Source: Lachnospiraceae bacterium (lineage in GTDB: Bacteria; Bacillota; Clostridia; Lachnospirales; Lachnospiraceae). Taken from it: a stretch of 37,217 nucleotides of DNA. A program made the position numbers and the translations under genes. The DNA is taken from NCBI GenBank assembly GCA_022799755.1, contig JAAWOU010000030.1:1-37217 (forward strand). Reading direction: 5' to 3'. Every line of letters begins with the position of its first letter. Position 1 is the stretch's first letter. Positions 7,486 through 30,669 of the stretch are shown here, in pieces. The notes beneath the pieces were generated by a model. The model was not told the origin of the DNA. It searched no databases and was given only the letters and a program-made list of their open reading frames with translations.

Positions 7486-7486
7486 G

Positions 7487-11198: not shown

Positions 11199-11241
11199 CT
11201 TTGAAAACGCCTTCCAGCTTTTCGGACAGGGATTTGTCCAT

Positions 11242-11360: not shown

Positions 11361-11509
11361 TGCCCGTGAACTAACCCCAAATACTACTGCCTGCAGCCTC
11401 AACGAATTCTAATGCCAAGCCCTGCGTTAATGTGCGCGAAAACACCTGGCGGAATTACCTGTAAAGAATCCTAAATACCGAAAATTAAAAAACGAAAAAC
11501 AGAAAAAGC

Positions 11510-11537
11510 TTGAAAAGAAATAAAGATATGATATAAT
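11510..11537 (+). promoter_or_regulatory. Promoter of the first alpha-mannosidase gene
   Basis: TTGAAA (11510-11515), a 16-base spacer and a perfect TATAAT (11532-11537), about 50 bases before the GH38 start. The surrounding sequence is AT-rich. Confidence 0.6.
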
Positions 11538-11587
11538 AAGGGCTAATTCAGCATGTCAAACAATGCAAAATTGTAAAGGAGGCTGTT

Positions 11588-14437: not shown

Positions 14438-14492
14438 GGGCGGAATGCCTGCCCGGATCAGGAGACGGGATATACGGACGGCATGACGGAAG

Positions 14493-14534
14493 AAAAAGAG
14501 AGGAAACCGATGCGGAAAGGTTTCCTCTCTTTTT
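14493..14534. terminator. Perfect bidirectional terminator
   Basis: Sixteen-base perfect arms (14493-14508 and 14519-14534) flank a 10-base loop. They include A5 on the left and T5 on the right, so each strand ends in a T-run. It separates the convergent alpha-mannosidase and repressor genes. Confidence 0.9.
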
Positions 14535-14580
14535 GGTGTCACAGTCGTTTGGGCAGTGGGCCTGCAGGGCAGAAACCCGC

Positions 14581-15696: not shown

Positions 15697-15771
15697 GATG
15701 CAGTCCTCCTTTTCGGTTCAAAACAGTTCGGACAGTCTGAAACCATCCGGATACAGAATATTTCTGTCTAA

Positions 15772-15801
15772 ATAATACCCTATTTTCATGGGCTGTGTCA
15801 A
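15772..15801 (-). promoter_or_regulatory. Promoter of the GntR-LacI-type repressor
   Basis: On the minus strand a perfect TTGACA (15796-15801), an 18-base spacer and TATTAT (15772-15777), about 75 bases before the repressor start. Confidence 0.55.
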
Positions 15802-15918
15802 GACGGCGCTCCTATTAAGTCAAGAGGTTTGATATTTTTGACATATACAATCTGCCACAAAAACGAGTGCGGAAAATGTGCAATATAACTAAAAATAGCT
15901 CGGGGGGGTAAAATCATG

Positions 15919-15947
15919 TTGCATGATGTATATCAATGTGCTAATAT
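15919..15947 (+). promoter_or_regulatory. Importer operon promoter with operator in its spacer
   Basis: TTGCAT (15919-15924), 17 bases and TAATAT (15942-15947) form a good promoter. The spacer carries TGATGTATATCA (15924-15935), a palindrome at 10 of 12 positions. A repressor bound there would block RNA polymerase. The same 10-base core, TGTATATCAA, recurs downstream at 15990. The assignment to the divergent GntR-LacI-type protein is inferred from position. Confidence 0.55.
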
Positions 15948-15985
15948 GTAACAAGAACGGCATGACAAATGGCAAAACTGAGAAA

Positions 15986-15999
15986 GATATGTATATCAA
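15986..15999 (+). promoter_or_regulatory. Second candidate repressor operator
   Basis: GATAT-GT-ATATC at 15986-15997 overlaps the second copy of TGTATATCAA (15990-15999). It starts exactly 63 bases after the first copy (15927), about six helical turns, and lies downstream of the predicted transcription start. Such phasing suits DNA looping. Confidence 0.45.
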
Positions 16000-16068
16000 A
16001 TAATACATAGTTAGTCATGTCAAATTTTCGTGCGCCAAATTATCTATGAGGAAAGGGAAGGTGTGTGT

Positions 16069-17028
16069 ATGGCAGGGAAAACGGCAAGGGCTGCGCTCAG
16101 CCCGGAACAGAAAGCCTACAACAAAAAGAGGTTGTGGGTGGAGATCAAGAAGCACTGGTTATTGTATGTATTTATGTTGCCTTGTTTGATCTCGATTATC
16201 GTGTTCTCTTATATACCGATGGGAGGCATTGTGCTGGCCTTTAAGAACTATCGGTTCGACTTAGGAATCTATGGAAGCGAATGGGCGGGGCTGAAGCATT
16301 TCAAAGCTTTCATGACATCCCCCGAGTTCTGGATAACGACGAAGAATACTTTGATCATCAGCATCATGAAGATCGTCATCTGTTTCCCGGCGCCTATCAT
16401 CCTGGCCCTGCTGCTGAATGAGGTGCGGGCGAAGAAGTACAAGAGCACCATACAGACCATGAGCTATCTGCCCAACTTCGTATCCTGGGCCGTGGTCGTG
16501 ACGATCCTGACGGCAATCTTCTCCCCCTACGGCGGCATCTTCAACGATATCCGCAAGTCCATGGGCCTGGATCCCATCTTCGTGCTGGGTGAGAAAGGAG
16601 CGTTCTACCCGCTGGTCATCCTGACGGATATCTGGAAGAACGTAGGATGGGGCTCCATCGTATATCTGTCCGCCATCACCGGGGTGGATCAGGGGCTCTA
16701 TGAGGCGGCCACCATCGACGGCGCAAACCGCTTGCAGTGCACCTGGCATGTGACCATCCCGGGCATCGCCACCACGATAGGCATCATGTTCATCATGAGG
16801 ATGGGCGGCATCCTGAGCGCGGACATGGATCAGCTCCTGCTCCTGCAGCAGCCCGCTAACATGGAACTTTCCCAGGTCCTGGACACTTACATCCTGCAGA
16901 CAGGTATCCGGTACGGCAAGTTCGAGTACGCCTCGGCCATCACCCTTGTCCGCTCGATAATCTCCCTGGGATTTGTGGCGATAACGAACCATCTGACGAA
17001 CAAGTACGCCGAAGTCGGTTTGTGGTAA
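16069..17028 (+). CDS. Sugar ABC transporter permease (LplB/YteP type)
   Basis: This is an inner-membrane permease of about 319 residues of an oligosaccharide importer (CUT1 group). About six hydrophobic helices are visible, beginning with HWLLYVFMLPCLISIIVFSY and the PMGGIVLAFKNY turn typical of the LplB branch. The cytoplasmic EAA loop, YEAATIDGANRLQCTWHVTI, is at about 211-231 and docks on the ATPase. The ATG is preceded by a modest GGGAAGG. An in-frame GTG at 16030 is an alternative but lies far from any ribosome site. It is followed after 15 bases by the partner permease. No ATPase gene is present in the window, so a shared MsmX-type ATPase elsewhere is expected. Confidence 0.9.
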   Translation: MAGKTARAALSPEQKAYNKKRLWVEIKKHWLLYVFMLPCLISIIVFSYIPMGGIVLAFKNYRFDLGIYGSEWAGLKHFKAFMTSPEFWITTKNTLIISIMKIVICFPAPIILALLLNEVRAKKYKSTIQTMSYLPNFVSWAVVVTILTAIFSPYGGIFNDIRKSMGLDPIFVLGEKGAFYPLVILTDIWKNVGWGSIVYLSAITGVDQGLYEAATIDGANRLQCTWHVTIPGIATTIGIMFIMRMGGILSADMDQLLLLQQPANMELSQVLDTYILQTGIRYGKFEYASAITLVRSIISLGFVAITNHLTNKYAEVGLW

Positions 17029-17043
17029 AGGAGGAGAGTGAAG

Positions 17044-17931
17044 ATGAAAGAGACCAGAGGTCAGAAGATATTTAAGATATTCAATTATACATTCCTTGGG
17101 TTCCTGGGACTGGCCACATTCTATCCTTTCTGGTATGTGCTGGTGGCATCCCTGAACGAGGGCCGCGATTTCATGCGGGGCGGCGTATGGTTCTTCCCCA
17201 GAGCTTTCACCTGGGAGAACTACGCCAAGGCATTCAATGATGACAGAATCGCTCCCTCCCTGAAGATTTCCGTGTCGGCCACCCTGATTGTGGTGGTGGC
17301 CAGCCTCCTGCTGACGGCGCTGGTGGCTTACGCTCTGACGGTGAAGACCCTGCCGGGGAGGAACATATTCAGCTTTTTCTGGTACTTTACGACGATTTTC
17401 GGCGGCGGTATGATTCCCTACTATCTGCTGCTGAGAGACCTGAAACTGACTTCCAGCTTCTGGCTGTATGTCATACCCAGTCTGTTCAGCTTTACGAATT
17501 TCATACTGATGCGGGCGAACTTCTCCGGGATACCCTATGAGCTGCGGGAATCGGCGCAGCTGGACGGGGCGGGAGAGTGGACCATCCTGAGCAGAATTTA
17601 TCTGCCTCTGTCCAAACCGATTCTGGCCACCCTGGCATTGTTCATAGGCGTGGGCAAATGGAATGACTGGTTCACCGCCGCTTACTATCAGAGTCAGGCA
17701 AAGCTCTACCCCGCAGCCACGGTGCTGCAGAGGCTCCTGGCGGAGGCTTCCGCAGGCAGCCAGGTCAAGGTGGGACAGGAGACGGCGGCCGCAGGCGGCA
17801 TGACTACATACACCTCCCAGTCCCTGCAGATGGCATTCGTTATGATTCTGACGATGCCCATCGTAGTCGTATATCCTTTCCTGCAGAAGTATTATGTGAA
17901 AGGTGTCATGGTCGGTTCTGTAAAGGGATGA
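17044..17931 (+). CDS. Sugar ABC transporter permease (YtcP/LplC type)
   Basis: This is the second importer permease, of about 295 residues. It has about six transmembrane helices and the EAA loop LRESAQLDGAGEWTILSRIY at about 166-186. NYTFLGFLGLATFYPFWYVL starts the membrane part, and the C-terminal FLQKYYVKGVMVGSVKG is a signature ending of this COG0395 branch. AGGAGG lies nine bases before the ATG; a GTG at 17038 is too close to it. It forms the heterodimeric channel with the preceding permease and is followed after 62 bases by the binding lipoprotein. Confidence 0.9.
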   Translation: MKETRGQKIFKIFNYTFLGFLGLATFYPFWYVLVASLNEGRDFMRGGVWFFPRAFTWENYAKAFNDDRIAPSLKISVSATLIVVVASLLLTALVAYALTVKTLPGRNIFSFFWYFTTIFGGGMIPYYLLLRDLKLTSSFWLYVIPSLFSFTNFILMRANFSGIPYELRESAQLDGAGEWTILSRIYLPLSKPILATLALFIGVGKWNDWFTAAYYQSQAKLYPAATVLQRLLAEASAGSQVKVGQETAAAGGMTTYTSQSLQMAFVMILTMPIVVVYPFLQKYYVKGVMVGSVKG

Positions 17932-17993
17932 TCTGAAATCCCTTTACCCGAAATATATGGTGAAAAACCAAAATAGAAGGAGGAAACAAAGTT

Positions 17994-19808
17994 ATGAAGA
18001 AAAAGGCAATGGCATTGCTGCTGTCAGCGGCGATGGCTGCAAGTGTTCTCACTGGCTGCGGTGGCGGCGACAGCGGGAGCAGCCAGTCTTCCGAGTCCCA
18101 GGGGGGACAGAAAGAGTCCGGTGCAGCGGAGGAGTCCAAGGCTGGGGGAGAGGAATCTACAGACGACGGGCAGGCGGCAGCCGATGACGGAGAGTATTAT
18201 GTGGACGAGGACGGAAACAAGTACAAGAAGTTCGACGACGTCCAGCTGAAGATGCTGATCTGCTGGAACGGCGGATTTAAGACCGCCGCCGACCAGTACA
18301 ACAACGACGTGGCCAAGGCCATCCGCGAGAAGATCGGTGTCACCGTAGAGTTCGAGGGCATCAACATGTCCGAGACAGAGAAGCTGAACCAGATGTTCTC
18401 CTCCGGCGATATGCCTGACATGATCAATGCACCTTACTGGGGCGGCACGGCAGGCGAGACCGGCGTTATCAAGAAAGGCGGAAATGAAGGCCGTCTGATC
18501 GACATCAAGGATCTGGTTCCCAATTACCCTAATATTGCGGACGCTTACGACATCGGCGTCATCAGCACAAAGTATCTGGAGAACGACATCGAACAGGAGA
18601 ACGGCGCCAGATACGTGCTGCCCACCGAGGTGGCAGGCAGCAAGGAAGATATCGCTCTGTGGGGATACGGCGTATTCGTAAGAGGCGATGTGCCTGAGGC
18701 TCTTGGCGTGGACGTCTCCACCATCAAGACCTCTGAGCAATTGATGGATTTCATGAAGCAGGCAAGGGATTACGGATTCAAGGATATCAACGGCAATGAC
18801 TGTATCGTGGCTACCACCTATCACAATGGCTGGAGCTATGACGATTACGCCCAGAGCTTCAGCGAGAAGAAGCTGACCTCATACGCGCTGGATGAGAACG
18901 GCAAAGTGACACATTTCAACCTGACAGAGGACTATGTGAACAAGCAGCTGTTTATCTGGGAGATGGTACATGAGGGCATTCTGGACAAAGAGTGCTTCAC
19001 CCAGAGCGATGACCGCGGCAAAGAGAAAGTCGGCAACGGCACGGCTCTGTTCTCCTGTGCACAGTATGGTATAACTGTGGATGCCACCAAGATGACAGGC
19101 CTGTATGACACCCATCCCGAGATGAGATATATCCCTGTAGGACCTTTGAACTACAAGGACGGCTCTTCTCTGGTACAGATTGAGTCCGAGGGAAGAAGCG
19201 GCTCTCCTGCCATCGTATTCCCTACCACCTGCTCCAACATCGACGCTGCCCTGACCTGGCTGGACTATCTGAACAGCAAAGAGGGCACGAAGCTGATCTG
19301 CTACGGCTTTGAGGGCGACACCTATGAGATGAACGATCAGGGACAGCCCAGGATGAACGCTGACCTCACCGCAAGGTATGCCGAGAACGCCGAGGCCGTA
19401 AAGGAAGAGCTGCGCGAGAGAGGCATCATGTACATGGCAAGCAGAACCTATGTGGCCAAGAAGAACAACCTGTGGTTCGGCGAGCCCGGACCTTTCGAGG
19501 CGGACGCACTGGATCCTTATGTGGCCGACTATCGGAAGCAGAGACCTGCGGAAGTGCTTCCCGGCTATGCGATCGATGCACTGGCTCCTGGCTTTGAGGG
19601 ATATAACGAGTTTTCCGAGTGGGCATTCGACGGCGAGAAAGAGAAATCGTACAAAGAGCGCGCGTTCTTTGCTGAGACCGAAGAGGAAGCAAGGTCCATC
19701 CTGGAGGATTATCAGGAGTACCTGAGAACCAACGACGGCGGCAAGATGCAGGAGTTCCTGGACTACATGACCGAGGTGTCCACCAGCAGAGATGATATTG
19801 TGTATTAA
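17994..19808 (+). CDS. Extracellular sugar-binding lipoprotein of the ABC importer
   Basis: This is a 604-residue solute-binding protein. The signal peptide MKKKAMALLLSAAMAASVLT leads to a lipobox with the lipidated Cys at about 22 (LTGC). A Gly/Ser/Glu-rich linker follows to about 75. The binding domain then includes GVTVEFEGINMSETEKLNQM and SSGDMPDMINAPYWGG, typical of the large YtcQ/LipO-type binding proteins paired with LplB/YtcP permeases. The ATG follows AAGGAGG by ten bases. The ligand is probably an oligosaccharide carrying alpha-mannose, judging from the two mannosidases nearby, but this is an inference. The gene ends before a strong hairpin, beyond which the exporter cassette starts. 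Confidence 0.92.
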   Translation: MKKKAMALLLSAAMAASVLTGCGGGDSGSSQSSESQGGQKESGAAEESKAGGEESTDDGQAAADDGEYYVDEDGNKYKKFDDVQLKMLICWNGGFKTAADQYNNDVAKAIREKIGVTVEFEGINMSETEKLNQMFSSGDMPDMINAPYWGGTAGETGVIKKGGNEGRLIDIKDLVPNYPNIADAYDIGVISTKYLENDIEQENGARYVLPTEVAGSKEDIALWGYGVFVRGDVPEALGVDVSTIKTSEQLMDFMKQARDYGFKDINGNDCIVATTYHNGWSYDDYAQSFSEKKLTSYALDENGKVTHFNLTEDYVNKQLFIWEMVHEGILDKECFTQSDDRGKEKVGNGTALFSCAQYGITVDATKMTGLYDTHPEMRYIPVGPLNYKDGSSLVQIESEGRSGSPAIVFPTTCSNIDAALTWLDYLNSKEGTKLICYGFEGDTYEMNDQGQPRMNADLTARYAENAEAVKEELRERGIMYMASRTYVAKKNNLWFGEPGPFEADALDPYVADYRKQRPAEVLPGYAIDALAPGFEGYNEFSEWAFDGEKEKSYKERAFFAETEEEARSILEDYQEYLRTNDGGKMQEFLDYMTEVSTSRDDIVY

Positions 19809-19846: not shown

Positions 19847-19897
19847 ATAAGGGAGTGCAACTTAATAGAAATATATGATTAAGTTGCACTCCCTTAT
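19847..19897. terminator. Long perfect hairpin after the importer operon
   Basis: Twenty-base perfect arms (19847-19866 and 19878-19897) enclose an 11-base loop. The right arm ends in CCCTTAT followed by TCT, and the left arm is preceded by an A-rich run. It probably terminates the importer mRNA. Its length and its position at the edge of the foreign-looking segment also allow a mobile-element end. Confidence 0.65.
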
Positions 19898-19960
19898 TCT
19901 ATGAAATCAGAGGGTATTTATTGTTGAATGTCTATTTAGTGTTCGGGAGATATAACGGAG

Positions 19961-20257
19961 ATGGGAGCCAGGAAACTGAAAATTAAGGAACCAATTATAT
20001 ATAGTTATGGGCATCAATGTGCGGTTTATAGTATATTATCGGCGTATCCAGAGACAGAAGCGTGGTTGAACGTTTAGGGACTATAGATAGAATTTGAACG
20101 GGCTTCGAATATTCCAGAAGAAGAATTTGGTATAGGAGATCATATGGGCCAGACAGATGGTGTGTATTTTTTTACAGTAGTAGTGGATCAGAATAAGCAT
20201 GCGTGTGGAACAAATCATTTCATGCAGATTGGGAAACTTTATTGCATCCTATACTGA
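19961..20257 (+). pseudogene. Broken gene with GHQCA motif, copy 1
   Basis: From the ATG the frame reads MGARKLKIKEPIIYSYGHQC, then AVYSILSAYPETEAWLNV, then a TAG. After a second TAG the same frame continues as IEFERASNIPEEEFGIGDHM and GVYFFTVVVDQNKHACGTNH to a TGA at 20255. This looks like a degraded gene with internal stops and probably a deletion. The first 33 residues match the broken gene at 26688 almost exactly. I do not recognise the family with confidence. The HxC spacing near the start is reminiscent of BtrH-like or papain-like proteins in peptide biosynthesis clusters, but this is unverified. It lies directly upstream of an exporter pair. Confidence 0.55.
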
Positions 20258-20505
20258 AAGATAGTTATGTTAAGGGAAAGACATTAAAGTTTATTGATGG
20301 AAAATTAATTATTTATAATGATATATATGATGATGATAATGGGCATGGAACTGCTATAACAGGGATTATTGTAAAAGAAACTGAAAAATGTAATATTTTA
20401 AGGGAAAAATTTCTTATGAATGAATACCGCGTGGGGCAAATTGGTTCGGAACCACAGTCGCTGTTATTTGGAATATTATTGACTAGTTTGCTGAGCCTTA
20501 AATGA
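20203..20505 (+). pseudogene. Fragment with subtilisin-like (S8) NGHGT motif
   Basis: A 100-residue frame contains LLHPILKDSYVKGKTLKF and YDDDNGHGTAITGIIVKETE (motif bases about 20325-20370). NGHGTxxxGII is the catalytic-His segment of S8 subtilases. The preceding Asp motif (DTGI-like) is absent, the Ser motif is absent, and the C-terminal part (SLLFGILLTSLLSLK) is unrelated. A full subtilase would have 250 or more residues. It overlaps the previous pseudogene in another frame, so at least two broken genes have been compressed here. S8 proteases often serve as leader peptidases in peptide maturation clusters, which would suit the exporter genes that follow. That link is inference. Confidence 0.5.
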
Positions 20506-20509
20506 ACAG

Positions 20510-22333
20510 GTGTTAAGGCTGCTGTGGAAAGGGGAGAAAAGGGGATTGGTGTCTAAAGTATTATCTCACTACTTATATCTTTTTAAAAAGCTACATCACG
20601 AGGACAGGAAATTAATTTTGATATGTCTTGCCATGGCAGGAGTACAGATCGGGATTCCGCTGTCCAATGTAATGTTTCCGAAAGCAGTAGTATGGGCTGT
20701 GTCTGGGAAAGCGGATTCGATGACTTTTTTGATGGCAATATTGATATTCTTTTTTTTTGTGAGCGGGGTGTGCAACGCGGCGAAGTCGTATTTTGACAGG
20801 CGAAATGGATTTTATCTAAGCAATTTCACTTTTAAGCTGCGGGAGGATATTCAGGAGATATCCATGCGGATGCCGTTTCCCATGACAGAGGATGGGAAAA
20901 CGTTGGATCAGATCCGGCTGGCAAAGGAGGGCTCCGGACGTGTGCAGCAGATGATTGAAGCTTGTGTGAGCTGTTTAACGTCCTTTGTTCTGTTAGCTGT
21001 CTATACCATGTTGCTGATACTGCTGGACTGGAAACTTCTGCTGGTCTTCATGTTGTGCACGATGCTGGATATTATTGTCATGAAGAAAACGAAAGACTAT
21101 GAGGCGGGATGCAGAGGGAAACTGGCTGCGGTGGGGCGGAGAAAGGGTTATTTATTCCAGATTATGTCTGATTACCGTTTTGGAAAAGAGCTGCGAATTT
21201 TTGGCATGGAGGGAATTTTGCAGCAGAAATATCAGGGGCAGTGCCGGAAAGGGCTGGAGGTAAGAATGCAGATAGAGCAGCACCGAACCGGAGGGGAAAT
21301 GATGGGGGCATTTCTGGATTTTGTGGCACAACTGGCGATTTATGTCATGCTATTTCTTCTGTATTTGCGGAAAGGGCTGACTGCGGATGATTTTGTTATG
21401 TATATAGGGATTGCAGCATCTTTTCACACAGTCTCAAGGACTTTTGTGGAAACCGGCACCAATATGATTTTGTTGAGTAGTTCTATTGTTGATTATCGCT
21501 GTTTTGTAGAGGGGAACAGATATGTTCTGGAAGAGGGAGAGAGTGATGCTTTTCATACCGTTTCTAGGAACTGCACGGTCGTGTTTGAAGATGTCAGTTT
21601 TACATATCCCGGAAACGATAGAAAAACGCTGGATCATGTGAGCTTTACGCTGGAGCCGGGCAGACAGATATCTCTTGTAGGGGAGAACGGAGCAGGAAAA
21701 TCCACCATTGTTAGGCTGCTCTGTGGCTTTTATGAGCCGGATGAGGGTCGCATTCTTTTAAATGGAAAGGATATTAAGGATTATGATAAAGAGGAATACC
21801 TAGCCCAGATATCAGCGGTGTTTCAGGAAAGTACTTTATATTCCGGTACATTAGAGGAGAATATCTGCCTTGGGCGCGAAGCGAACCAGACGCATATGCG
21901 GGAGGCCTTTCGCATGGTGGGAATGGAGGAGAAAATAAGGAAACTTCCCATGCAGGAAAAAAGTAATGTGTTGAAATATATCCATGATGACGGCATTGAG
22001 TTTTCCGGTGGGGAAAAGCAACGTCTTTGCATTGCGAGGGCCGTCTATAAAGACAGTGGTCTTCTTCTGCTGGATGAGCCTACGGCAGCACTGGATGCAC
22101 TGGCGGAAAAAGAGATTTATGAGAGCTTTAGCAGAATATCCAGCGGTCGGACGGTGCTGTTTATCTCTCACAGACTAAACTCTAACCGTCTTTGTGATAA
22201 GGTGATTTTCATGGAAAAGGGACATGTCTGTGCGCAGGGAAGCCATGAGGAGCTGATTGATAGTTGTGAGGCTTATCGGGATATGTATAATCTGCAGGCC
22301 CAGTATTATGTTAAGAGGGAAATGGTGTTATGA
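20510..22333 (+). CDS. ABC exporter half-transporter, cassette 1 subunit A
   Basis: This is a half-transporter of about 595-607 residues: five or six membrane helices (about 35-320), then an ATPase domain. Walker A is VGENGAGKST (about 390), the signature FSGGEKQ (about 497), Walker B LLLLDEPTAALD (about 518-529) and the switch His in FISHRLN. There is no N-terminal C39 peptidase domain. The start is uncertain: GTG at 20510 has no ribosome site, while TTG 20546 or GTG 20549 follow AAAGGGGAG. The protein ends in QAQYYVKREMVL. The sequence is visibly AT-richer than the flanking sugar genes. It overlaps subunit B by ATGA, so the two form a heterodimer. The substrate is unknown; a peptide is suggested by the neighbouring broken genes. 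Confidence 0.85.
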   Translation: MLRLLWKGEKRGLVSKVLSHYLYLFKKLHHEDRKLILICLAMAGVQIGIPLSNVMFPKAVVWAVSGKADSMTFLMAILIFFFFVSGVCNAAKSYFDRRNGFYLSNFTFKLREDIQEISMRMPFPMTEDGKTLDQIRLAKEGSGRVQQMIEACVSCLTSFVLLAVYTMLLILLDWKLLLVFMLCTMLDIIVMKKTKDYEAGCRGKLAAVGRRKGYLFQIMSDYRFGKELRIFGMEGILQQKYQGQCRKGLEVRMQIEQHRTGGEMMGAFLDFVAQLAIYVMLFLLYLRKGLTADDFVMYIGIAASFHTVSRTFVETGTNMILLSSSIVDYRCFVEGNRYVLEEGESDAFHTVSRNCTVVFEDVSFTYPGNDRKTLDHVSFTLEPGRQISLVGENGAGKSTIVRLLCGFYEPDEGRILLNGKDIKDYDKEEYLAQISAVFQESTLYSGTLEENICLGREANQTHMREAFRMVGMEEKIRKLPMQEKSNVLKYIHDDGIEFSGGEKQRLCIARAVYKDSGLLLLDEPTAALDALAEKEIYESFSRISSGRTVLFISHRLNSNRLCDKVIFMEKGHVCAQGSHEELIDSCEAYRDMYNLQAQYYVKREMVL

Positions 22334-24078
22334 AGAAGTGGAAATCGCTTTTTTACTTTTTGAAAACAGCATATGCTACTTCATGGAAAGCATTGGTATA
22401 TAGCCTTGCATTGACGGCATTAAAAGCAGCATTGCCGATCGTTACTGCTATCTTGTCGTCAAAACTGTTGGGACAGCTGACTATGGGTGTACCATCAGAT
22501 GAAATCGTGAGGGTGATCTTTCTGATTCTTGCAGTCCAGCTGACGGCAGGCATGATTCAGCCATTCTTGGCGAATCGTTTCTTGACATTGACAGAGAAAA
22601 TGAAAGATGATTTCCGTCTTCGTATTGGAATTAGGATGATGCGAATGGAGTATGGAAAAGTGGAGTCGTCCAAGGTGCAGGATATCAAGCAGCAGGCGTT
22701 GCTTCCAATTGTGGAATGGAATGCCTTTGAATTCATTCTAAATGAATTTGTGCCTGCTGTTTTGGGGGGCATCATGACGATAGTGGCGACTTTTTTTCTG
22801 GTATTGGACTTTGGCATATTGCTGCTTTTTCCGGTATTGCTGTTAGTGGCAGTGCAGTTTGGTCTGACTGGGATGAAGAACAAAAAATTTCAGACGGTGA
22901 TGTCTAACGTGGGCATGGTGGAACGCAGACTGGATTATTACAATATGGTGACAGATGATTTTTCCATGGGAAAGGACATCCGGATTTTCAGGGCGGACAG
23001 GATGCTGATGAAAAAGATTAAGGATTTGAACGATAGGGAGGTAGGGGAATTCTCAGAGTTGTTCTACAAGGCATCTTTTCTGGACTTCTGGGAAACATGG
23101 GTGACGCAGATACAGGTCTACATGATTTATTTTGCGCAAGCCATTGCCTTATTCAGGCGGATGATCGATATTGAAGCTTTTTTCAGAATCACGGGCCTGT
23201 TCATAAATTTTGCAGGCGCAGTATTCCAGACATTGAATGCCTTTTCAAATCTGCGTGTACAGATGAGATTTCTAGAGGGCTTTATGAATTTTGAGCAGTT
23301 GCCCATGCAGGACATTCAGATGGAAGATGTCTGCCAAACTGCTAAAGAGATTGAATTCAGGAATGTTTCTTTCCACTATGAGGGGGCAGATACGAATGTG
23401 TTGGAGGATGTCAACTTTTCCGTTCCTCAGGGGACGAGCGTGGCGCTAGTCGGAGTGAATGGCAGCGGAAAAACGACAGTGGCAAAACTTGTAACAGGAC
23501 TTCTGTCCCCTACTGATGGGCAGATATTAGTAGATGGGATGTCCCTTTCCGGAAATGCAAGAAGAAACGCTTCGGCGGTCTATCAGGATTTCCAGCTATT
23601 TGCGTTTACCATTCGAGAAAATATTGAGACTGGTTTTTCCGGACGGGGTGATGCGGAAAAGACTTTGAGGACGGTGGGGCTTGATGGTCTATTAGACAAT
23701 GCGGGATGTAATCTGGAGACCTATTTGTATCAGGCATGGAATGAAGGCGGCATTACGCTCTCTGGCGGACAGGGCCAAAAATTAGCCATGGCCAGGGCAT
23801 TATATAAAGACGCAGGCTTGGTTGTTCTGGATGAACCTACCTCTGCATATGACGCGAAAGCGGAGGAAGAGATTTTCCGCAATTTCAGGAAACTTACGGA
23901 GGGAAAAACGGCCCTTTTGATTTCACATCGGTTAGCAAGCTGCCGTTTTTGCGATAAGATTATCGTGCTTGATGGAGGCAGGATTGTGGAAGAGGGCTCG
24001 CATGAGCAGCTTATGCGACATGAGCACGGAAAGTATCGTGAAATGTTTCTGGCACAGGCAGAATATTATCAAAAATAA
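22330..24078 (+). CDS. ABC exporter half-transporter, cassette 1 subunit B
   Basis: This is a 582-residue half-transporter. The membrane domain runs over about 15-310, then comes Walker A VGVNGSGKTT (about 374-383), the signature LSGGQGQ (about 477-483), Walker B VVLDEPTSAYD and LISHRLA. The D-loop is SAYD instead of the usual SALD or AALD. The protein ends in QAEYYQK, matching the endings of the other three exporters here. Its ATG overlaps the stop of subunit A. A weak hairpin (24093-24112) follows. It is likely an export ATPase acting as a heterodimer with subunit A at the plasma membrane. The substrate is not determinable. Confidence 0.87.
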   Translation: MKKWKSLFYFLKTAYATSWKALVYSLALTALKAALPIVTAILSSKLLGQLTMGVPSDEIVRVIFLILAVQLTAGMIQPFLANRFLTLTEKMKDDFRLRIGIRMMRMEYGKVESSKVQDIKQQALLPIVEWNAFEFILNEFVPAVLGGIMTIVATFFLVLDFGILLLFPVLLLVAVQFGLTGMKNKKFQTVMSNVGMVERRLDYYNMVTDDFSMGKDIRIFRADRMLMKKIKDLNDREVGEFSELFYKASFLDFWETWVTQIQVYMIYFAQAIALFRRMIDIEAFFRITGLFINFAGAVFQTLNAFSNLRVQMRFLEGFMNFEQLPMQDIQMEDVCQTAKEIEFRNVSFHYEGADTNVLEDVNFSVPQGTSVALVGVNGSGKTTVAKLVTGLLSPTDGQILVDGMSLSGNARRNASAVYQDFQLFAFTIRENIETGFSGRGDAEKTLRTVGLDGLLDNAGCNLETYLYQAWNEGGITLSGGQGQKLAMARALYKDAGLVVLDEPTSAYDAKAEEEIFRNFRKLTEGKTALLISHRLASCRFCDKIIVLDGGRIVEEGSHEQLMRHEHGKYREMFLAQAEYYQK

Positions 24079-24092
24079 GCTATTGAACCTCA

Positions 24093-24112
24093 AAGAATAT
24101 TTGAGTATTCTT
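24093..24112 (+). terminator. Weak hairpin after exporter cassette 1
   Basis: AAGAATA and TATTCTT, perfect seven-base arms with a six-base loop, are followed by an AT-rich stretch with five T's (ATTTTT) six bases on. It is a weak terminator candidate in the 122-base gap. Confidence 0.35.
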
Positions 24113-24165
24113 ATAAAGATTTTTAACATGAGGCTTGGAAATCATGTTGATTAGAAGACAGAGAT

Positions 24166-24184
24166 TTTGAGAGTACATCTCAAA
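24166..24184 (+). promoter_or_regulatory. Inverted repeat just before the ribosome site of the 24201 gene
   Basis: TTTGAGA-GTACA-TCTCAAA, seven-base perfect arms, ends a few bases before AAGGGAGG of the putative hydrolase. It could be an operator or an mRNA hairpin affecting translation. No promoter was recognised in this gap. Confidence 0.35.
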
Positions 24185-24200
24185 GAAAGGGAGGCATATT

Positions 24201-26468
24201 ATGGCATACATTCGAGAGAAGACAGAAGAGCTGACCGGTTATCAGGCAGGCGGGGAGTTTCGGCCCTCCGTGGACTTAGGCTGTGATTTCGTCATGGTGT
24301 ACGGCATCGACGATACCATGCCGGAGCGCATTCGCCAGTACAGGGAGAAAGGGTATGTGATTCACCTGATGACAGGCATCGCCTGGGGCGAGTACCAGGA
24401 TTACCTGGACGGCAAATGGGACGGCAGGAAACACTGGGACGAGGGCCAGGTGGAGAGGAGCGGTGCGGGGGTAAACCACAATCCCACGGTTCCCTATATG
24501 GTTCCCACAGTGTCCTTTTCCGAGTATCTCACCGAGCGGATGAAGATCGCCGTGGATGCCGGGGTGGAGGCCATCCATGTGGAGGAGCCGGAGTTCTGGG
24601 ACAAGAGCGGCTATTCCGAGGCGTTCAAGCGGGAGTATGAGATTCATTACAAGGAGCCCTGGAGGCCCCAGCACCAGGATCTGGATGTCCGCTATAAGTC
24701 TGCAAAGCTGAAAGCGTACCTGTACTGCCGTACCATCGACAGGGTCAGCGCCTCGCTGAAAGAATACGCCAAGGTGAAGCACGGGAAAGACCTGAGATTC
24801 TATGTGCCCACCCACAGTCTGCTGAACTATACCCAGTGGAAGATCATGAGCCCGGAGGCAGCGCTGATCGGAATCCCCTCCGTGGACGGGTACATCGCCC
24901 AGATCTGGACGGGCACCAGCAGGGAAGCCAATGTCTATGAGGGTGTGTATAAAGAACGTACGTTCGAGACGGCTTACCTGGAGTACGGCGTGATGCAGGA
25001 GCTGGTGAAAGGCACCGGGCGCAGGATGTGGTTCCTGAACGACCCCATCGAGGATCTGCCCAGCTACACCTGGGAGAATTACCGCTATAATTACGTGAAG
25101 ACAGCAACGGCTTCACTCCTGCATCCCTATATCTGGCATTATGAGATATGCCCCTGGCCCCACAGGGTATTCGAGGGGTGCTATCCCAGGGTGCAGCCCA
25201 GGATCGCGGAGAAGATTGAGACCAGCTTCGCCACGGAGGAATCAAAGCCGATTCCTTTAGGCTATGCTACATTGCTGTCAGGCATGTTCCAGCTGTTCGG
25301 GGACATGGAGCAGGAGGACATCTTCTTTGAGGGGGACTTGCCGGGAGTGGGCCTCTTCATGTCGGACAGCGGACTGTTCCAGCGCACTTTCCCGGATGGA
25401 ATCGTCACCGGGGAGCCCATAGAGGAGCGTTTCAGGAAAGCCCTGCACAAAAATTCCGGCAATGCGGTGGACGAGGAGCAGGCGGCGGCCCTGATGAAGG
25501 AAATCGAGGCGGATGATTCCATGATGAAGGACTTCATCCAGAGCCCTGCGTTTCCTCAGTTCTTCGGCATGGCCCTGCCTCTGGTGAAATACGGGCTGCC
25601 CCTGAAGCCAGTGCAGCTGGACAATGTGCGGCGGTTTGCGGGCTACCTGGATGATTGCCGTTTCCTGATTTTAAGCTACGAGTACATCAAGCCGGAGGCG
25701 CCGGATGTGAACGCCTCTCTGGTGTCCTGGGTGAGATCGGGCGGGACGCTCATGTACATCGGGGACGGGAGCGATCCTTTCCACGGAATCTCCTCCTGGT
25801 GGAGGCAGTCTGGCTATGAGAACCCGGCAAGACACCTCTTCGAGATGGCAGGGCTGGAGCAGAACCCGGCAGACGGACACTACCCTGTGGGCAAGGGCCG
25901 GATCATCGTCTGGAACATGCTGCCCGCAAGGCTCTGCCTGTCAAAGGAGCTCACCGGGGCGTACAGGGAGCTGGTGAAAGAGGGGCTTAAGGAATGCGGC
26001 GCGGACTGGCGGTACCGCAATGACCTTACCCTGCACAGAGGGCCGTACATCATCTCGGCCGTGATGGACGAGAGCGTGAGCGACGCAACCAAGCGGTTCG
26101 AGGGATTGTTCGCCGACATGCTGGAGAATGATTATCGGATTATCGACAGGAAAGAAATCGGCCCGGACGAAAACGCCATCCTGTTCGACTTCTCCAAGAT
26201 TGAACAGGACCAGTTCCGGATTGTGGGTACTTCCGCCAGAGTGGAGAAAGTGGAGCCTACGGCGGAGGGAATCGCTTTCCGGCTGAAGACGGCAGACAAG
26301 ATCAAAGCGTTCCTGAGAGTGCGCCTGCCCCGTCCGGTGAGCACTGCCTCGGGGGTGGACGAGGACGGCAACAGTGTACCCGTCTCCATGGAGTGGGACG
26401 ACAGGACGCGCACTCTGCTGGTGTCCTATGACAGCCATGGGAAAGCGGTGGACGTGACAGCGGTTTAG
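24201..26468 (+). CDS. Putative TIM-barrel glycoside hydrolase of unrecognised family
   Basis: This is a 755-residue protein that I do not recognise. The first roughly 330 residues have strand-helix periodicity like a TIM barrel: DFVMVYGIDDT, YVIHLMTGIAWGEYQDYLDG, AIHVEEPEFWD (about 124-134) and DLRFYVPTHS. Adjacent acids in HVEEPEFW are candidate catalytic residues. A middle part with CRFLILSYEYIKPEAP and SLVSWVRSGGTLMYIGDGSD (about 483-525) resembles the flavodoxin-like trimerisation domain of GH42 beta-galactosidases. The C-terminus is beta-rich. There is no signal peptide. The ATG follows AAGGGAGG by seven bases. Base composition matches the sugar genes rather than the flanking exporters. 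Its place between the importer and a GH38 enzyme suggests a role in the same glycan pathway; specificity is unknown. Confidence 0.6.
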   Translation: MAYIREKTEELTGYQAGGEFRPSVDLGCDFVMVYGIDDTMPERIRQYREKGYVIHLMTGIAWGEYQDYLDGKWDGRKHWDEGQVERSGAGVNHNPTVPYMVPTVSFSEYLTERMKIAVDAGVEAIHVEEPEFWDKSGYSEAFKREYEIHYKEPWRPQHQDLDVRYKSAKLKAYLYCRTIDRVSASLKEYAKVKHGKDLRFYVPTHSLLNYTQWKIMSPEAALIGIPSVDGYIAQIWTGTSREANVYEGVYKERTFETAYLEYGVMQELVKGTGRRMWFLNDPIEDLPSYTWENYRYNYVKTATASLLHPYIWHYEICPWPHRVFEGCYPRVQPRIAEKIETSFATEESKPIPLGYATLLSGMFQLFGDMEQEDIFFEGDLPGVGLFMSDSGLFQRTFPDGIVTGEPIEERFRKALHKNSGNAVDEEQAAALMKEIEADDSMMKDFIQSPAFPQFFGMALPLVKYGLPLKPVQLDNVRRFAGYLDDCRFLILSYEYIKPEAPDVNASLVSWVRSGGTLMYIGDGSDPFHGISSWWRQSGYENPARHLFEMAGLEQNPADGHYPVGKGRIIVWNMLPARLCLSKELTGAYRELVKEGLKECGADWRYRNDLTLHRGPYIISAVMDESVSDATKRFEGLFADMLENDYRIIDRKEIGPDENAILFDFSKIEQDQFRIVGTSARVEKVEPTAEGIAFRLKTADKIKAFLRVRLPRPVSTASGVDEDGNSVPVSMEWDDRTRTLLVSYDSHGKAVDVTAV

Positions 26469-26687
26469 GCATCTGCTGATGGTTTAGACATTTGGATTTG
26501 CTTTTGATAGCATAGGCGAGCAGTAATATAACCTGCAGTGTAGTGAAAAGCTGTCAGACCGTCAATCTGCACAGAAAATTGTTGCGTTTGACGGTTTGCA
26601 GCTGAACTCAATTATAGGAAGCAGAGAGCTTTTGCAAGTCGCTGAATATTTATGAATTGTTGGTATCCTATGCTGGCGAAAGGGGTG

Positions 26688-26888
26688 ATGATACAGGTGG
26701 GAGCTGTGAAACTGAAAATAAAAGAACCAATTATACATAGTTATGGGCATCAATGTGCGATTTATAGCATATTATCGGCATACCCGGAAATAGAGCCGAG
26801 GTTGTACTGTAATTATACTCAAATTTTTACACTGCGAAATCTGCATACTGCTGTCAAACTGGCTAAAGTTTATGAGTATACCGATTGA
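26688..26888 (+). pseudogene. Broken gene with GHQCA motif, copy 2
   Basis: From an ATG behind AAAGGGG the frame reads MIQVGAVKLKIKEPIIHSYG, then HQCAIYSILSAYPEIEPRLY, CNYTQIFTLRNLH and an AVKLAKVYEYTD tail to a stop. The stretch KLKIKEPII to SAYPE is nearly identical to copy 1 at 19961, in DNA as well as protein. The copies diverge after about residue 35. This copy carries about 15 extra residues that copy 1 lacks, so each preserves a different remnant of a longer gene. It lies about 130 bases upstream of exporter cassette 2, just as copy 1 precedes cassette 1. The rest of the 547-base gap (26469-27015) holds only AT-rich sequence and a lone TTGACA at 26886 without a clear -10. Confidence 0.55.
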
Positions 26889-27015
26889 CATGGTAAAAAG
26901 TTTCGGTTCAGTCAAATGAGGGATATACTTCGCTTACTTTTCCCTGCGGCTATGACATGCACATATATCCTTTTCGGGGAAGCAAAATAACGTATTATTT
27001 TAAGGAGATAGAACT

Positions 27016-28821
27016 ATGAAGAGTTTTTTTCAGAACATCCGTTACTATATCCGAATTGTCTGGCAGAGCGAAAAAAGTTACTTTGCTGTTTTTATCGTCC
27101 TGACCTTGGTGATGGCTGCGGGGCCTATTTCAGGGGTTTTATTGCCAAAGATTGTTATTCAGGATATTTTGGCACAGGATTTGGCAAGGTTTGCCGTTCA
27201 TATCGTAATACTGGCAATCGTATCCATTGCTTCTTCCTTTTTTGTTTCATATTACAGCCTGAAAAACGATGCCCTTTTTCTGCGCTTGGGTTTCAAATTG
27301 AAAGAAAAGCTACAGAAGAAAGCGATGGAGATGCCTTTTGCTGATACCGAGAATCCGACTGTGCTGAATAGTCTGAATAATGCCACATTCAGCGTAGACC
27401 GATTTGTCATGGCACTGCACAAAATAGGAACAGTTTTTTTCTCTAACGGCATCATCCTTTTGTTCTATATTGTTTTGGCGGTAAAGCTGCAACCGCTTTT
27501 GCTTTTGCTTCCTTTCTTGAATATTGCATTGAATCTCTTTTATGAAGACAGGGTAAAAAAATATGAATACGAAAGAATGGATGAGAGGGCAGATATCCTT
27601 AGAAAACGTGATTACACTTTCTCTCTTATGTATGACTATGGATATGGCAAGGAAGTTCGTCTTTTTACCATAAAAGACTGGATTATCGGCATCTACCGTC
27701 AGTACCAGCATCAATACGAAATGTTCCTGAAGCGGATTGCTGGTAAGAAAAAGACAGCAGCGGCAGTGGATCTCTTTTTCACTTTTTTTCGTGAGGCATT
27801 CGTCTATTTTTATCTGGTGGATATTTTTCTAAAAGGTGAGCTGACGGTGGGCTCTTTTGTCTTGTATACAGGCATCTTTGCGTCTTTTGCGGCAGTGGGT
27901 CTGGACCTTGCGAAGATGGGGGCAGAGATGGTTGATACGGCCAGGCAGGTTCGGACATATCAGGACTTTGCAGAGGACAAGGAAAAAATGGATGGAGGCA
28001 CTGTTCAAATCCCCTGGGCGGAAGCTTATGGATTCGAATTCTGTCATGTCTCATTTCGGTATCCTGGAAGCGAACAGTATGTTTTGAAAGATTTTTCCTG
28101 TAAGGTCAATCCGGGTGCCCATGTAGCATTGGTGGGGCGGAATGGGGCAGGAAAATCGACTATTGTTAAGCTGCTGTGTGGCCTTTATACTGATTACGAG
28201 GGGATCATTCGTGTGTGTGGCATTGACTTGCGCACTTTGGATTTGCGGAAGTACCAGGATCGTATTGCCCCAGTCTTTCAAGAATCCCGGGTAATTCCTG
28301 CTACTTTGCTTGAAAATATCACGCTGAAAGAGAAAAATACCCCGGAAGAGGTCTGTAGGGCACAAGATACATTGCGTATGATGGGGTTGTATGATAAGGT
28401 AGAAAGTCTGCCGAAAAAGCTGGAAACTCCAGTTGGCAAGGCTATTGACCCGGATGGAGTGGAGCTTTCCGGCGGGGAGCGCCAGAAGCTGGTGATTTGT
28501 CGTGCTCTTTACCGAGGTGGAGGCATTTTGCTGCTGGATGAGCCCACAGCTGCGCTGGACGCCCTGGCTGAGCATGAGGTGTACAATCATTTCCATGATA
28601 TTTCCCGGAATCGTACTACCTTTTTTATTTCCCACCGATTGAACTCCACACGTTTCTGCGATGAAATCTGGCTCCTGGATCAGGGAAAGATTACAGAGCG
28701 CGGTAGTCATGAGGAATTGTACAAGAAAGGTGGGAGCTATTACCAGATGTTCCACACTCAGGCTCAATATTATAGAAAGCAAGGATATCTGGAAAGGGAG
28801 GATGAATATGACGAAGCATGA
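27016..28821 (+). CDS. ABC exporter half-transporter, cassette 2 subunit A
   Basis: This is a 601-residue half-transporter without a peptidase domain. The membrane part is at about 20-310, then Walker A VGRNGAGKST (about 373-382), the signature LSGGERQ (about 485-491), Walker B ILLLDEPTAALD and FISHRLN. It ends in MFHTQAQYYRKQGYLERE. The ATG follows AAGGAG by eight bases. It resembles subunit A of cassette 1 in layout (LLP or MFPK near the first helices, EMPF/RMPF, YGYGKEVRLF versus YRFGKELRIF) but is clearly diverged. The sequence is AT-rich compared with the flanking sugar genes. It is paired with the next gene as a probable heterodimeric exporter. The substrate is unknown. Confidence 0.87.
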   Translation: MKSFFQNIRYYIRIVWQSEKSYFAVFIVLTLVMAAGPISGVLLPKIVIQDILAQDLARFAVHIVILAIVSIASSFFVSYYSLKNDALFLRLGFKLKEKLQKKAMEMPFADTENPTVLNSLNNATFSVDRFVMALHKIGTVFFSNGIILLFYIVLAVKLQPLLLLLPFLNIALNLFYEDRVKKYEYERMDERADILRKRDYTFSLMYDYGYGKEVRLFTIKDWIIGIYRQYQHQYEMFLKRIAGKKKTAAAVDLFFTFFREAFVYFYLVDIFLKGELTVGSFVLYTGIFASFAAVGLDLAKMGAEMVDTARQVRTYQDFAEDKEKMDGGTVQIPWAEAYGFEFCHVSFRYPGSEQYVLKDFSCKVNPGAHVALVGRNGAGKSTIVKLLCGLYTDYEGIIRVCGIDLRTLDLRKYQDRIAPVFQESRVIPATLLENITLKEKNTPEEVCRAQDTLRMMGLYDKVESLPKKLETPVGKAIDPDGVELSGGERQKLVICRALYRGGGILLLDEPTAALDALAEHEVYNHFHDISRNRTTFFISHRLNSTRFCDEIWLLDQGKITERGSHEELYKKGGSYYQMFHTQAQYYRKQGYLEREDEYDEA

Positions 28822-30610
28822 GAAAGGACTCAAAGAAACCGGGCGGAAGTTCATGCTGCCTTTTTACGTCATGAAGCTGACCCTTAAGGTATCTCCGGCC
28901 TACTTGGCGGTGACAGCTGGGATTGCGGTGGTATCTGCTGTGAGCCCAATTCTGAATGTATGGCTGACTCAGCAGATCCTGGCAGGGCTGTTGTCTGGGG
29001 AGGGAAATCGAAAGCTGTTCTTTTTGGTGGTATGTTTAGTAGCCGCTAATTTCTTTTGCATGGGAGCCAACCGATATCTGACTGTAAAGCAGGGGGTTTT
29101 TTCTGAGCGGTTTCGAGATGATTTTAAATGTTATGTGGGACAGAGGATTATGTGCATGGATTACTCCCAGTTGGAGGACTCGCGAGTTATGGATTTAAAA
29201 GACCGCGCACTTCGTCCGATCATCGATTATGGCGTGCTGGATTTGATGCTGCGAGAGACTATTCCAACTATACTGAGCAGCCTGTTTCTTATGATGGGGA
29301 CAGCGGCGATTGCCGCAGCAGGCTATCCTGTGCTGCTGTTGGCTCTGTTTGTGATGGCGGGTATTAATCTGCACTTTGTGAACCAAACCAGGAAAACCAA
29401 GGATGAGACATATCAGGTGATTCTGCCAGTGGAGAGGAAGATTGGCGCATACAATGGGATGACTGCAGATTTCTCCATCGGGAAAGATATACGCCTCTAT
29501 GATATGGGCGGTATTCTCATGGATAAGATTCGCCGATTGAACCGGACAGATTTAAAAGCGCTTTCTGCCCAGTTCGGACGTATCAGCCGTAGTGCAGGCC
29601 TGTCATCGCTTCTGTCCCAGCTACAGCTATTCGCTATTTATGGGTTATTGGCGGTCTGGGCCATGCAGGGAAAGCTGGGGATTGCGGAGTATGCTTTCTA
29701 TACGGGGATTTTCCTGAATCTGGGGACGGCTCTTTTCCGTATCAGTGACAAGATGTCGGATCTCTTTTATACCGGGAAGTTTTTTTCTGCCTTTCGTGAG
29801 TTCGAGGAGCTATCCATGCGGAAAGATGGGAAAGCGAAGTCATTTGCCGATGCGCCCCAGGTGGAAGTTCGGGATATTTCTTTTTCTTATCCGGGAGTCA
29901 GCGAACCTGTGCTGAAAAATCTTTCTTTGACAATTTCAAAAGGAGAGCGATTGGCGATTGTGGGACGCAATGGCGCAGGTAAGACCACATTGGTGAAGTT
30001 GCTCTGTGGGCTATATCGACCTGACAGCGGCCAGATTCTGTTCGATGGAGAGCAGATTGGCGGCATGGAGGGGCTTAGTGCAGCTGTTTTTCAGGATTTC
30101 AAGCTTTTTGCTTATACACTGTATGACAATGTAGTAATGGGGAGAGATGAGGACGCAGAGTTGATGCCGATTTTTGAGCGTGTGGGACTAGAAAGCACAG
30201 TGGAGGGTCTGCCGGAGAGAGAGCATAGCTACCTCTATAAGCTCTTTGAGCCGACTGGGGTAGAGCTGTCTGGTGGGAATGAACAGAGGCTCGCTATTGC
30301 CCGGGCACTGTACAGGGATGCACCGGTGCTGATACTGGATGAGCCGACGGCTGCTTTGGATCCGGTATCGGAGGAGGAAATTTTTCACAGTTTCAGGGAA
30401 ATCAGCCATGGGAAGACATCGGTTATGATTTCCCACAGACTTTCCGCGACTCGGCTCTGTGACCGGATTGTAGTACTGCAGGACGGCTGCATCGTGGAGG
30501 AAGGGAGCCATGAGGAACTAATGGGGGTGGAAAACGGAATCTATCGGAACATGTTCGAGACCCAGGCTCAGTACTATCAGGAACAGCAGGAGCGGGAGGT
30601 ATGCCATTAG
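28808..30610 (+). CDS. ABC exporter half-transporter, cassette 2 subunit B
   Basis: This is a 600-residue half-transporter. The membrane part is at about 20-320, then Walker A VGRNGAGKTT (about 384-393), the signature LSGGNEQ (about 487-493), Walker B LILDEPTAALD and ISHRLS. It ends in MFETQAQYYQEQQEREVCH. The chosen ATG lies six bases after AGGGAGG and overlaps the upstream gene by 14 bases; an ATG two codons earlier touches the Shine-Dalgarno. LSGGNEQ replaces the usual LSGGQ/LSGGE, a small change in the signature loop. Together with the preceding gene it would form an export complex. The gene ends about 60 bases before the second alpha-mannosidase. Confidence 0.87.
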   Translation: MTKHEKGLKETGRKFMLPFYVMKLTLKVSPAYLAVTAGIAVVSAVSPILNVWLTQQILAGLLSGEGNRKLFFLVVCLVAANFFCMGANRYLTVKQGVFSERFRDDFKCYVGQRIMCMDYSQLEDSRVMDLKDRALRPIIDYGVLDLMLRETIPTILSSLFLMMGTAAIAAAGYPVLLLALFVMAGINLHFVNQTRKTKDETYQVILPVERKIGAYNGMTADFSIGKDIRLYDMGGILMDKIRRLNRTDLKALSAQFGRISRSAGLSSLLSQLQLFAIYGLLAVWAMQGKLGIAEYAFYTGIFLNLGTALFRISDKMSDLFYTGKFFSAFREFEELSMRKDGKAKSFADAPQVEVRDISFSYPGVSEPVLKNLSLTISKGERLAIVGRNGAGKTTLVKLLCGLYRPDSGQILFDGEQIGGMEGLSAAVFQDFKLFAYTLYDNVVMGRDEDAELMPIFERVGLESTVEGLPEREHSYLYKLFEPTGVELSGGNEQRLAIARALYRDAPVLILDEPTAALDPVSEEEIFHSFREISHGKTSVMISHRLSATRLCDRIVVLQDGCIVEEGSHEELMGVENGIYRNMFETQAQYYQEQQEREVCH

Positions 30611-30669
30611 GTCTGAGCGTAAGGGTATAATATCAAGATATTATAAATAAAAGAAGGAGGAATATGGAA

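Follow-up and report, generated by a model that had tools for sequence, protein, structure and literature searches.

Why should an operon that probably serves the use of a mannose-glycan be interrupted twice by pairs of ATP-binding cassette (ABC) exporter genes, each pair preceded by the debris of another gene? This question is raised by a stretch of 37,217 nucleotides from a Lachnospiraceae bacterium (GenBank JAAWOU010000030.1), hereafter the window, which is the whole of contig C66 in a 3.74 Mb genome (146 contigs, 86% complete). Here, a glycoside hydrolase family 38 (GH38) alpha-mannosidase gene (mannosidase a) is followed by a divergent regulator gene, two permease genes, a solute-binding protein gene, remnant 1, exporter genes 1A and 1B, the gene for a conserved 755-residue protein, remnant 2, exporter genes 2A and 2B, and a second mannosidase gene (mannosidase b; Table 1), an order that an earlier note, made from the DNA letters alone, had correctly read from the importer onwards. 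The importer, the conserved putative hydrolase of 755 residues and the GH38 mannosidase point to the probable glycan target. We find that both exporter-bearing cassettes are insertions, and that exporter genes have settled in this operon more than once within the genus.

Sister genomes reveal two insertions in a repeatedly occupied operon

We found the 755-residue protein in five of 137 other genomes of the genus (E ≤ 1e-40), namely G130, G113, G019, G061 and G131, and compared all five with the window. In G130 the genes for the permeases, the solute-binding protein, the 755-residue protein and mannosidase b are contiguous, at 85-87% nucleotide identity, and G113 has the same contiguous order at ~70% identity, with a contig end that cuts mannosidase b. 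This uninterrupted importer-hydrolase-mannosidase order, whose existence in relatives the earlier note had anticipated, identifies the two cassettes as insertions. On one contig of G019 the solute-binding protein gene adjoins the start of the 755-residue protein gene; on another contig, other genes follow the 755-residue protein gene, and mannosidase b was not seen. The closest relative, G061 (93% hydrolase identity), has an empty junction between the solute-binding protein and hydrolase genes, and carries one exporter pair (p/q) between the 755-residue protein gene and mannosidase b and another (x/y) between mannosidase a and the regulator. Finally, an exporter 83% identical to p lies directly upstream of the 755-residue protein gene in G131, the contig ending behind this exporter, and genes for a glycyl-radical enzyme and its activase separate the 755-residue protein gene from mannosidase b (identified with Pfam; L086, 4404-7562).

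Overall, the first junction is empty in all four relatives in which both sides are visible, and the second junction in two of four. Leaving the window aside, the relatives hold two exporter pairs, one single exporter (p-like, in G131) and one non-exporter block at junctions of the operon. All five of these exporter genes are open frames, and three of them (G061 p and q and the G131 exporter) match the operon in base composition. Of the 138 genomes of the genus, two carry an exporter of the p type (at E ≤ 1e-110), each time adjoining the 755-residue protein gene but on opposite sides; exporter q was found in G061 only. Such repeated occupation is unlikely to have arisen by chance, as exporters make up less than 1% of genes by a rough count, although few cases are involved and the genomes were not chosen independently. 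The earlier note had held that exporters of matching composition, always present between these sugar genes in relatives, would speak against insertion. Two relatives do carry operon exporters, three of whose five genes match in composition, but these exporters differ from those of the window and some occupy different junctions, and no exporter lies in the visible stretch of G130 or G113.

The insert boundaries could be placed to within some bases. Insert 1 begins directly behind a hairpin at 19851-19893 (minimum free energy -30.8 kcal/mol, z -9.0) that is kept at the empty junction of G061, and ends near the next ribosome-binding site; the hairpins of G061 and G130 fold at -21.8 and -25.5 kcal/mol (z -5.2 and -5.6), respectively. 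Insert 2, whose far end lies close to the mannosidase b ribosome-binding site, altered the C-terminus of the 755-residue protein, which reads VTAV in the window and VTGHYRD or VTGRYGKG in relatives. We detected no terminal repeats or target duplications at the insert ends (the longest shared words within 70-90 bases are 5-7 bases long) and, besides the exporters, no plus-strand open reading frame (ORF) of recombinase size in the inserts, and on these grounds rejected an origin as mobile elements. Read by eye, both arms of the hairpin have changed letters in the two sister species that retain it.

Base composition also sets the inserts apart. GC content is 0.53-0.60 in the sugar genes, 0.44-0.50 in the exporters and 0.35-0.39 in the remnant regions, and GC at third codon positions (GC3) is 0.71-0.80 in the sugar genes versus 0.48-0.56 in the exporters, in agreement with the earlier description of the exporter blocks as AT-richer.

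Both exporter pairs follow remnants of decayed assembly genes

Each cassette opens with pieces of a gene that we term GHQCA. A profile search with relatives returned whole proteins opening with the same words as the remnants, P0133 (361 residues), P0134 (372) and P0135 (368); together with a copy in G061, these whole relatives bear out the earlier note's reading of a broken gene. Remnant 1 starts with an ATG at 19961, and remnant 2 with a GTG at 26697, with an in-frame ATG at 26688. Mapped onto P0133 by tblastn, remnant 1 corresponds to residues 1-37, 51-60 (in another frame) and 163-212, with a stop and internal losses, and remnant 2 to residues 1-53 of a P0133-type protein plus 79-92 in another frame. 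Genome searches with P0135 and P0133 placed the main remnant pieces identically, and a 48-residue remnant piece searched in 60 relatives was not found outside the window. The remnant-2 ORF at 26652-26888 corresponds to protein P0136, whose three member sequences recur on four contigs, which speaks against a single-assembly error in that piece.

Local alignment of the two remnants gives a score of 136, whereas 200 dinucleotide shuffles averaged 22 and never exceeded 31, indicating that they are truly homologous. Calling them "nearly identical", as the earlier note did, was slightly too strong: across 36 codons, 20 are identical, nine differ synonymously and seven non-synonymously (84% nucleotide identity), so neither remnant is a fresh copy of the other. 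Likewise, the proposal that the same broken gene heads both cassettes holds for the GHQCA pieces, but remnant 1 is not a single gene; it consists of pieces of a GHQCA gene followed by pieces of a subtilase-TIGR04066 fusion. Within the open stretch 20203-20505 we identified a subtilase piece with a GHGT motif (Pfam Peptidase_S8, E 0.033) and a TIGR04066 piece (E 0.018, 14.1 bits versus a cut-off of 200). When aligned with a whole fusion (L068 numbering), in which the two parts lie ~350 residues apart, this remnant joins sequence from near residues 27-60 to sequence from near 412-437, with 69% identity over 26 residues and 41% over 34. Absent from it are the regions that presumably carry the catalytic Asp and Ser of the subtilase triad, and the subtilase piece reads as a relic, a non-working member of its family, next to only a fragment of TIGR04066. 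As these pieces lie behind those of GHQCA, cassette 1 formerly held at least two assembly genes.

By our own count, the assembly genes beside the exporters have suffered at least six separate losses. Besides the exporters, neither insert contains a plus-strand ORF of more than 100 residues, and therefore no radical SAM (S-adenosylmethionine) gene. Except for the remnant ORFs, the insert gaps yielded no carrier-like or precursor candidate with a ribosome-binding-like sequence, in a survey in which some of the short ORFs were searched for domains.

The exporters are intact members of two old lineages

In contrast to the assembly genes, the exporters have suffered no stops, deletions or frame changes over ~7.2 kb of coding sequence, and the Walker A, signature, Walker B and H-loop motifs are complete in all four proteins. 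Intact exporters adjoining decayed assembly genes favor selection on the pumps, although decay may have begun before insertion. Pfam shows no match to peptidase C39 or to ABC_membrane (PF00664) in any of the four; MsbA-type NCBIfam models cover most of each, below cut-off.

As supposed earlier, the two pairs are strongly diverged, with 35.0% identity between 1A and 2A and 35.9-36.1% between 1B and 2B. In a 42-row tree, for which the program warns of long branches and in which many forks are open, 1A groups with 2A (100/99) and the 1B clade with the 2B clade (100/100), so the two pairs represent two old lineages of one exporter type. 1B has few close relatives (best 76-77%; clade members from other assemblies at 45-77%), and 2B has more of them, at 50-90%, with clade members from other assemblies at 40-90% identity. 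No relative of 1B was found among the 137 other genus genomes at E ≤ 1e-120 or among 396 other family genomes at 1e-95, and 2A gave four matches in 249 other family genomes (32-36% identity, E ≤ 1e-95). A scan of genome contigs with 1A returned two distant loci, and searches of viral contigs with 2B and of plasmids with insert 1 returned no match.

Table 1. Features of the mannose-glycan locus and its two inserts, with the basis of each assignment.
Feature	Position	Strand	Basis
GH38 alpha-mannosidase a, 949 residues	11588..14437	+	Pfam Glyco_hydro_38N/C, Alpha-mann_mid; 84.5% identity in G061
GntR/LacI-type regulator, divergent from importer genes	14581..15696	-	Pfam GntR + Peripla_BP_3; 79% identity in G061
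Sugar importer (two permeases + solute-binding protein)	16030..19808	+	83-96% identity in G061/G130
Importer permeases	16030-17028, 17038-17931	+	Pfam BPD_transp_1, both
Importer solute-binding protein	17994-19808	+	SBP_bac_1 match below cut-off
Intercistronic hairpin behind solute-binding gene	19851..19893	+	Folding; also in G061, G130
Insert 1 (cassette 1)	19909..24179	+	blastn, junction letters by eye; ends +/- some bases
GHQCA remnant 1	19961..20242	+	tblastn with P0133-P0135; genome searches with P0135, P0133
Subtilase-TIGR04066 fusion remnant	20203..20505	+	Pfam Peptidase_S8, TIGR04066, match to whole fusion
ABC half-transporter 1A, 607 residues, intact	20510..22333	+	ABC_tran E 3e-35; motifs
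ABC half-transporter 1B, 582 residues, intact	22330..24078	+	Domain match, motifs
Conserved operon protein, putative glycoside hydrolase, 755 residues	24201..26468	+	87-93% identity in G061, G130, G131
Insert 2 (cassette 2)	26461..30646	+	Relatives' junctions compared; ends +/- some bases
GHQCA remnant 2	26688..26921	+	tblastn, genome search
ABC half-transporter 2A, 601 residues, intact, sister of 1A	27016..28821	+	Motifs, tree 100/99
ABC half-transporter 2B, 600 residues, intact	28808..30610	+	Motifs; clade sister to 1B clade, tree 100/100
GH38 alpha-mannosidase b, 1049 residues	30664..33813	+	Pfam; 89% identity in G061, G130, G131

The 755-residue protein between the two inserts has no match in Pfam or NCBIfam, and its structure model is poor (predicted local distance difference test score 47). 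Counting the window's own genome, it occurs in six of 138 genus genomes, and may represent an undescribed glycoside hydrolase family.

GHQCA proteins resemble carrier-protein-dependent condensing enzymes

The fold of P0133 matches the papain-like carrier-protein-dependent enzymes BtrH, CcbD, CtaG and AziU3 over its full length, at a sequence identity of only 9-10% (BtrH, PMC10318531; CcbD, PMC4351081). Lower-ranked fold matches (phytochelatin synthase, AvrRpt2-like, C39 and staphopain proteases) have only the N-terminal half in common. On the Pfam BtrH_N model, P0133 and a GHQ-type protein from contig C47 of the window's genome score 18.9 and 19.5 bits, below the gathering score of 29.7, and P0135 has no match. 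P0133 has Cys20, and His129 and Asp147 are invariant in 15 of 15 aligned sequences; unlike in the BtrH/CcbD-type enzymes, the Cys is missing from several members of the family (P0135 and the HHAH type), and the window's gene is dead.

Among 90 other genus genomes, the closest relative of P0133 is encoded on contig C13 of G061 (66% identical, E 7e-169), surrounded by a second GHQ-type gene and genes for an AMP-ligase, PanD, an IS110 transposase, an exporter pair and a LytTR regulator. The tail of the AMP-ligase, read by eye, resembles a carrier domain, and the neighborhood has no match to subtilase or radical SAM reference proteins. The exporters on C13 are 23-36% identical to the window exporters in aligned parts and fall into other clades of the tree. 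Conservation of GHQCA at 66% while the adjoining exporters differ, one enzyme type with very different pumps, may be taken as only indirect support for the earlier suggestion of recombination at the leader gene. Given the likeness of GHQCA to condensing enzymes and the AMP-ligase/PanD context in G061, the product may equally well be a non-peptide or a hybrid as a peptide. The proposal that the cassettes are peptide-export units is therefore partly supported, fitting the subtilase and TIGR04066 pieces of cassette 1.

The G061 cluster as a whole (L160, G061:C13:85000-104900; PanD, AMP-ligase, two CcbD/CtaG/BtrH-like genes and exporters at 3133-13916) looks like a beta-alanine-using assembly line, which we take to be perhaps closthioamide-like. 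Across 17 GHQ-type stretches (L122-L138), at least nine show by eye a trio of a small carrier-like protein, a GHQ-type protein and a third protein. In L123-L134, the trio comprises a carrier-like protein of ~84 residues, a GHQ-type protein of ~350 residues and a protein of ~240 residues that by eye is phosphopantetheinyl transferase-like, several of these trios lying near ribosomal protein genes.

Whole clusters of the same general kind lie mostly outside sugar loci

On contig C47 of the window's genome, an exporter pair lies together with genes for a GHQ-type protein, a carrier-like protein, two radical SAM proteins and a fusion of subtilase with TIGR04066 that matches the QhpE and TIGR04066 profiles, in each case below the cut-off. 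The search for an intact cluster proposed in the earlier note thus led to a whole maturation and export cluster of the same general kind, but not to a whole GHQCA gene with close relatives of the window exporters. In this cluster (L053, G000:C47:27000-46298, at 8366-18573), GC content is 0.29-0.34 in the three assembly genes measured and 0.50 in the exporters.

By its gene content, the C47 cluster reads as a variant of the TIGR04066 cluster of Roseburia, for which a TIGR04068 radical SAM protein, TIGR04066, carrier-like TIGR04069, a subtilase and an ABC transporter are reported (PMC4573289); the Paenibacillus SacP23 cluster is reported to have TIGR04068, TIGR04066, TIGR04069 and an ABC transporter (PMC10731318). 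Cassette 1 likewise has subtilase and TIGR04066 pieces before an exporter pair. In contrast to these sactipeptide-like clusters, the window keeps only the exporters intact, with a radical SAM gene and a precursor not seen, and its cassettes sit inside a sugar operon; moreover, in both the window and C47 types, subtilase and TIGR04066 form one fused gene and a BtrH/CcbD-like gene is added.

In two further genomes, G211 and G247, the gene immediately preceding the exporter genes is of the GHQ type. The G211 cluster is flanked by a GH38-like gene/permease (39% to mannosidase a, BLAST) and a GH43 gene (Pfam). On this contig (G211:C116; L064/L066/L067), the maturation cluster is whole and includes two exporter pairs in tandem as well as a fusion gene of GHQ-type and GNAT acetyltransferase parts. 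We inspected 18 of 28 TIGR04066 places, with neighbors of TIGR04066 and GHQ places labeled by eye and from BLAST comparison with a limited set of reference proteins, and few of them by Pfam; one (G211) lies amid GH38-like, GH43 and permease genes, and one (L070) adjoins a BNR-repeat protein. When exporter pairs of the window's genome were compared with permeases (E ≤ 1e-30), only the C75 pair, besides those of the window, lay within 5 kb of one (by eye). A general tie of this exporter and maturation type to sugar loci is therefore unsupported: in the stretches taken, clusters elsewhere lie mostly outside sugar loci, G211 excepted.

Origin and possible role of the cassettes

On balance, we consider it fairly probable that two modular cassettes were inserted in the mannose-glycan operon, that their assembly genes decayed, and that the pumps were kept and are now probably read with the operon as stand-alone exporters. 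Two cassettes, each probably made of a GHQCA condensing enzyme and an ABC exporter pair, entered neighboring junctions of the operon, cassette 1 also bringing the subtilase-TIGR04066 gene, which points to descent from a cluster for a peptide or a hybrid natural product. Decay then struck the assembly genes, we infer after rather than before insertion, and spared the four exporter genes. Their placement behind operon genes, ending at the next ribosome-binding sites, suggests that the exporters are probably co-transcribed from the sugar promoter. During glycan use, the pumps would most likely act on their own, conferring immunity to a compound or expelling it, the compound being peptide-like or small and amphiphilic. 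That the operon is a preferred docking place, into which exporter pairs from natural-product clusters are plugged, shedding their assembly genes and becoming glycan-switched, is a bolder idea that we hold rather unlikely.

Several points weigh against this explanation. Retained exporter function is deduced from intact reading frames, and the joint inheritance of a GHQCA gene and the exporter pair behind it from their being neighbors. We saw no whole GHQCA gene next to close relatives of the window exporters, nor a precursor peptide in the insert gaps, where some of the short ORFs were domain-searched. The exporters of maturation clusters do not form one clade (seven changes, a number as low in 85 of 500 shuffles), and a promoter scan returned 25 sites compared to 18.9 in shuffles (standard deviation 4.5), little better than chance. 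The assembly behind the locus is also fragmented.

Among the alternatives, the one that survives best, possible but doubtful, is that the exporters are functionally part of glycan use: a harmful aglycone, glycopeptide or intermediate would be released, each species would recruit an exporter, and the GHQCA remnants would be passive. The differing exporters that this operon carries in the window, in G061 and in G131, the position of p-type exporters beside the hydrolase in both genomes that have them, and the operon-like composition of G061 p/q and the G131 exporter are all consistent with this scenario. Against it, G130 and G113 lack exporters in the stretch seen (both contigs are short), the remnants ahead of each window pair suggest an origin from natural-product genes, and the exporters belong to several clades, making one common substrate doubtful.

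It is less probable still that the cassettes are neutral, recent insertions at junctions that tolerate foreign DNA, with exporters intact for want of time to decay. Non-exporter cargo, such as the glycyl-radical enzyme and activase of G131, would fit, as would the base composition in which the window exporters still differ from the operon. Yet several deletions, stops and frame changes have struck the assembly genes and none the exporters, a disparity that could predate insertion, and the operon exporter genes of G061 and G131 are all open, three of them sharing the operon's composition.

We regard as very improbable an ancestral arrangement in which the operon contained exporters from the start and G130 and G113 lost them: the distant family member G211 does have two tandem exporter pairs within a maturation cluster between GH38-like and GH43 genes, but in the tree other exporters are closer to those of the window, and G061 retains the hairpin at an empty first junction and carries different exporters in other places. 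Local duplication of one cassette to the next junction followed by divergence, suggested by the same cassette type flanking one gene and by N-terminal remnant pieces that are 84% identical, was rejected as contradicted by the exporter tree, in which 1B and 2B fall in separate, strongly supported clades with relatives from other assemblies, so that their split is older than the insertion.

Horizontal gain of transporter genes within operons, and exporter-bearing carbohydrate loci, are general notions, and the window likewise has acquired transporters between co-directional genes; what differs in this operon is that different exporters were gained repeatedly, at several junctions, within one genus. 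Among the papers listed in a literature search, which is no proof of absence, none described exporters inserted in such operons. Empty-site comparisons in a single genus thus place natural-product exporter modules between the genes of a carbohydrate operon, with assembly genes decayed and pumps surviving, and show the same operon used several times with different pumps. The linkage of fused subtilase-TIGR04066 genes with BtrH/CcbD-like condensing enzymes is a combination of interest for new products, with whole clusters on C47 and at L135 and L162. Shared expression, if real, would bring resistance-like or secretion functions under glycan control and give partnerless exporters in sugar loci an origin. 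Were the operon indeed a preferred docking place, self-immunity exporters would become diet-controlled defense pumps, serving immunity against competitors' compounds or efflux.

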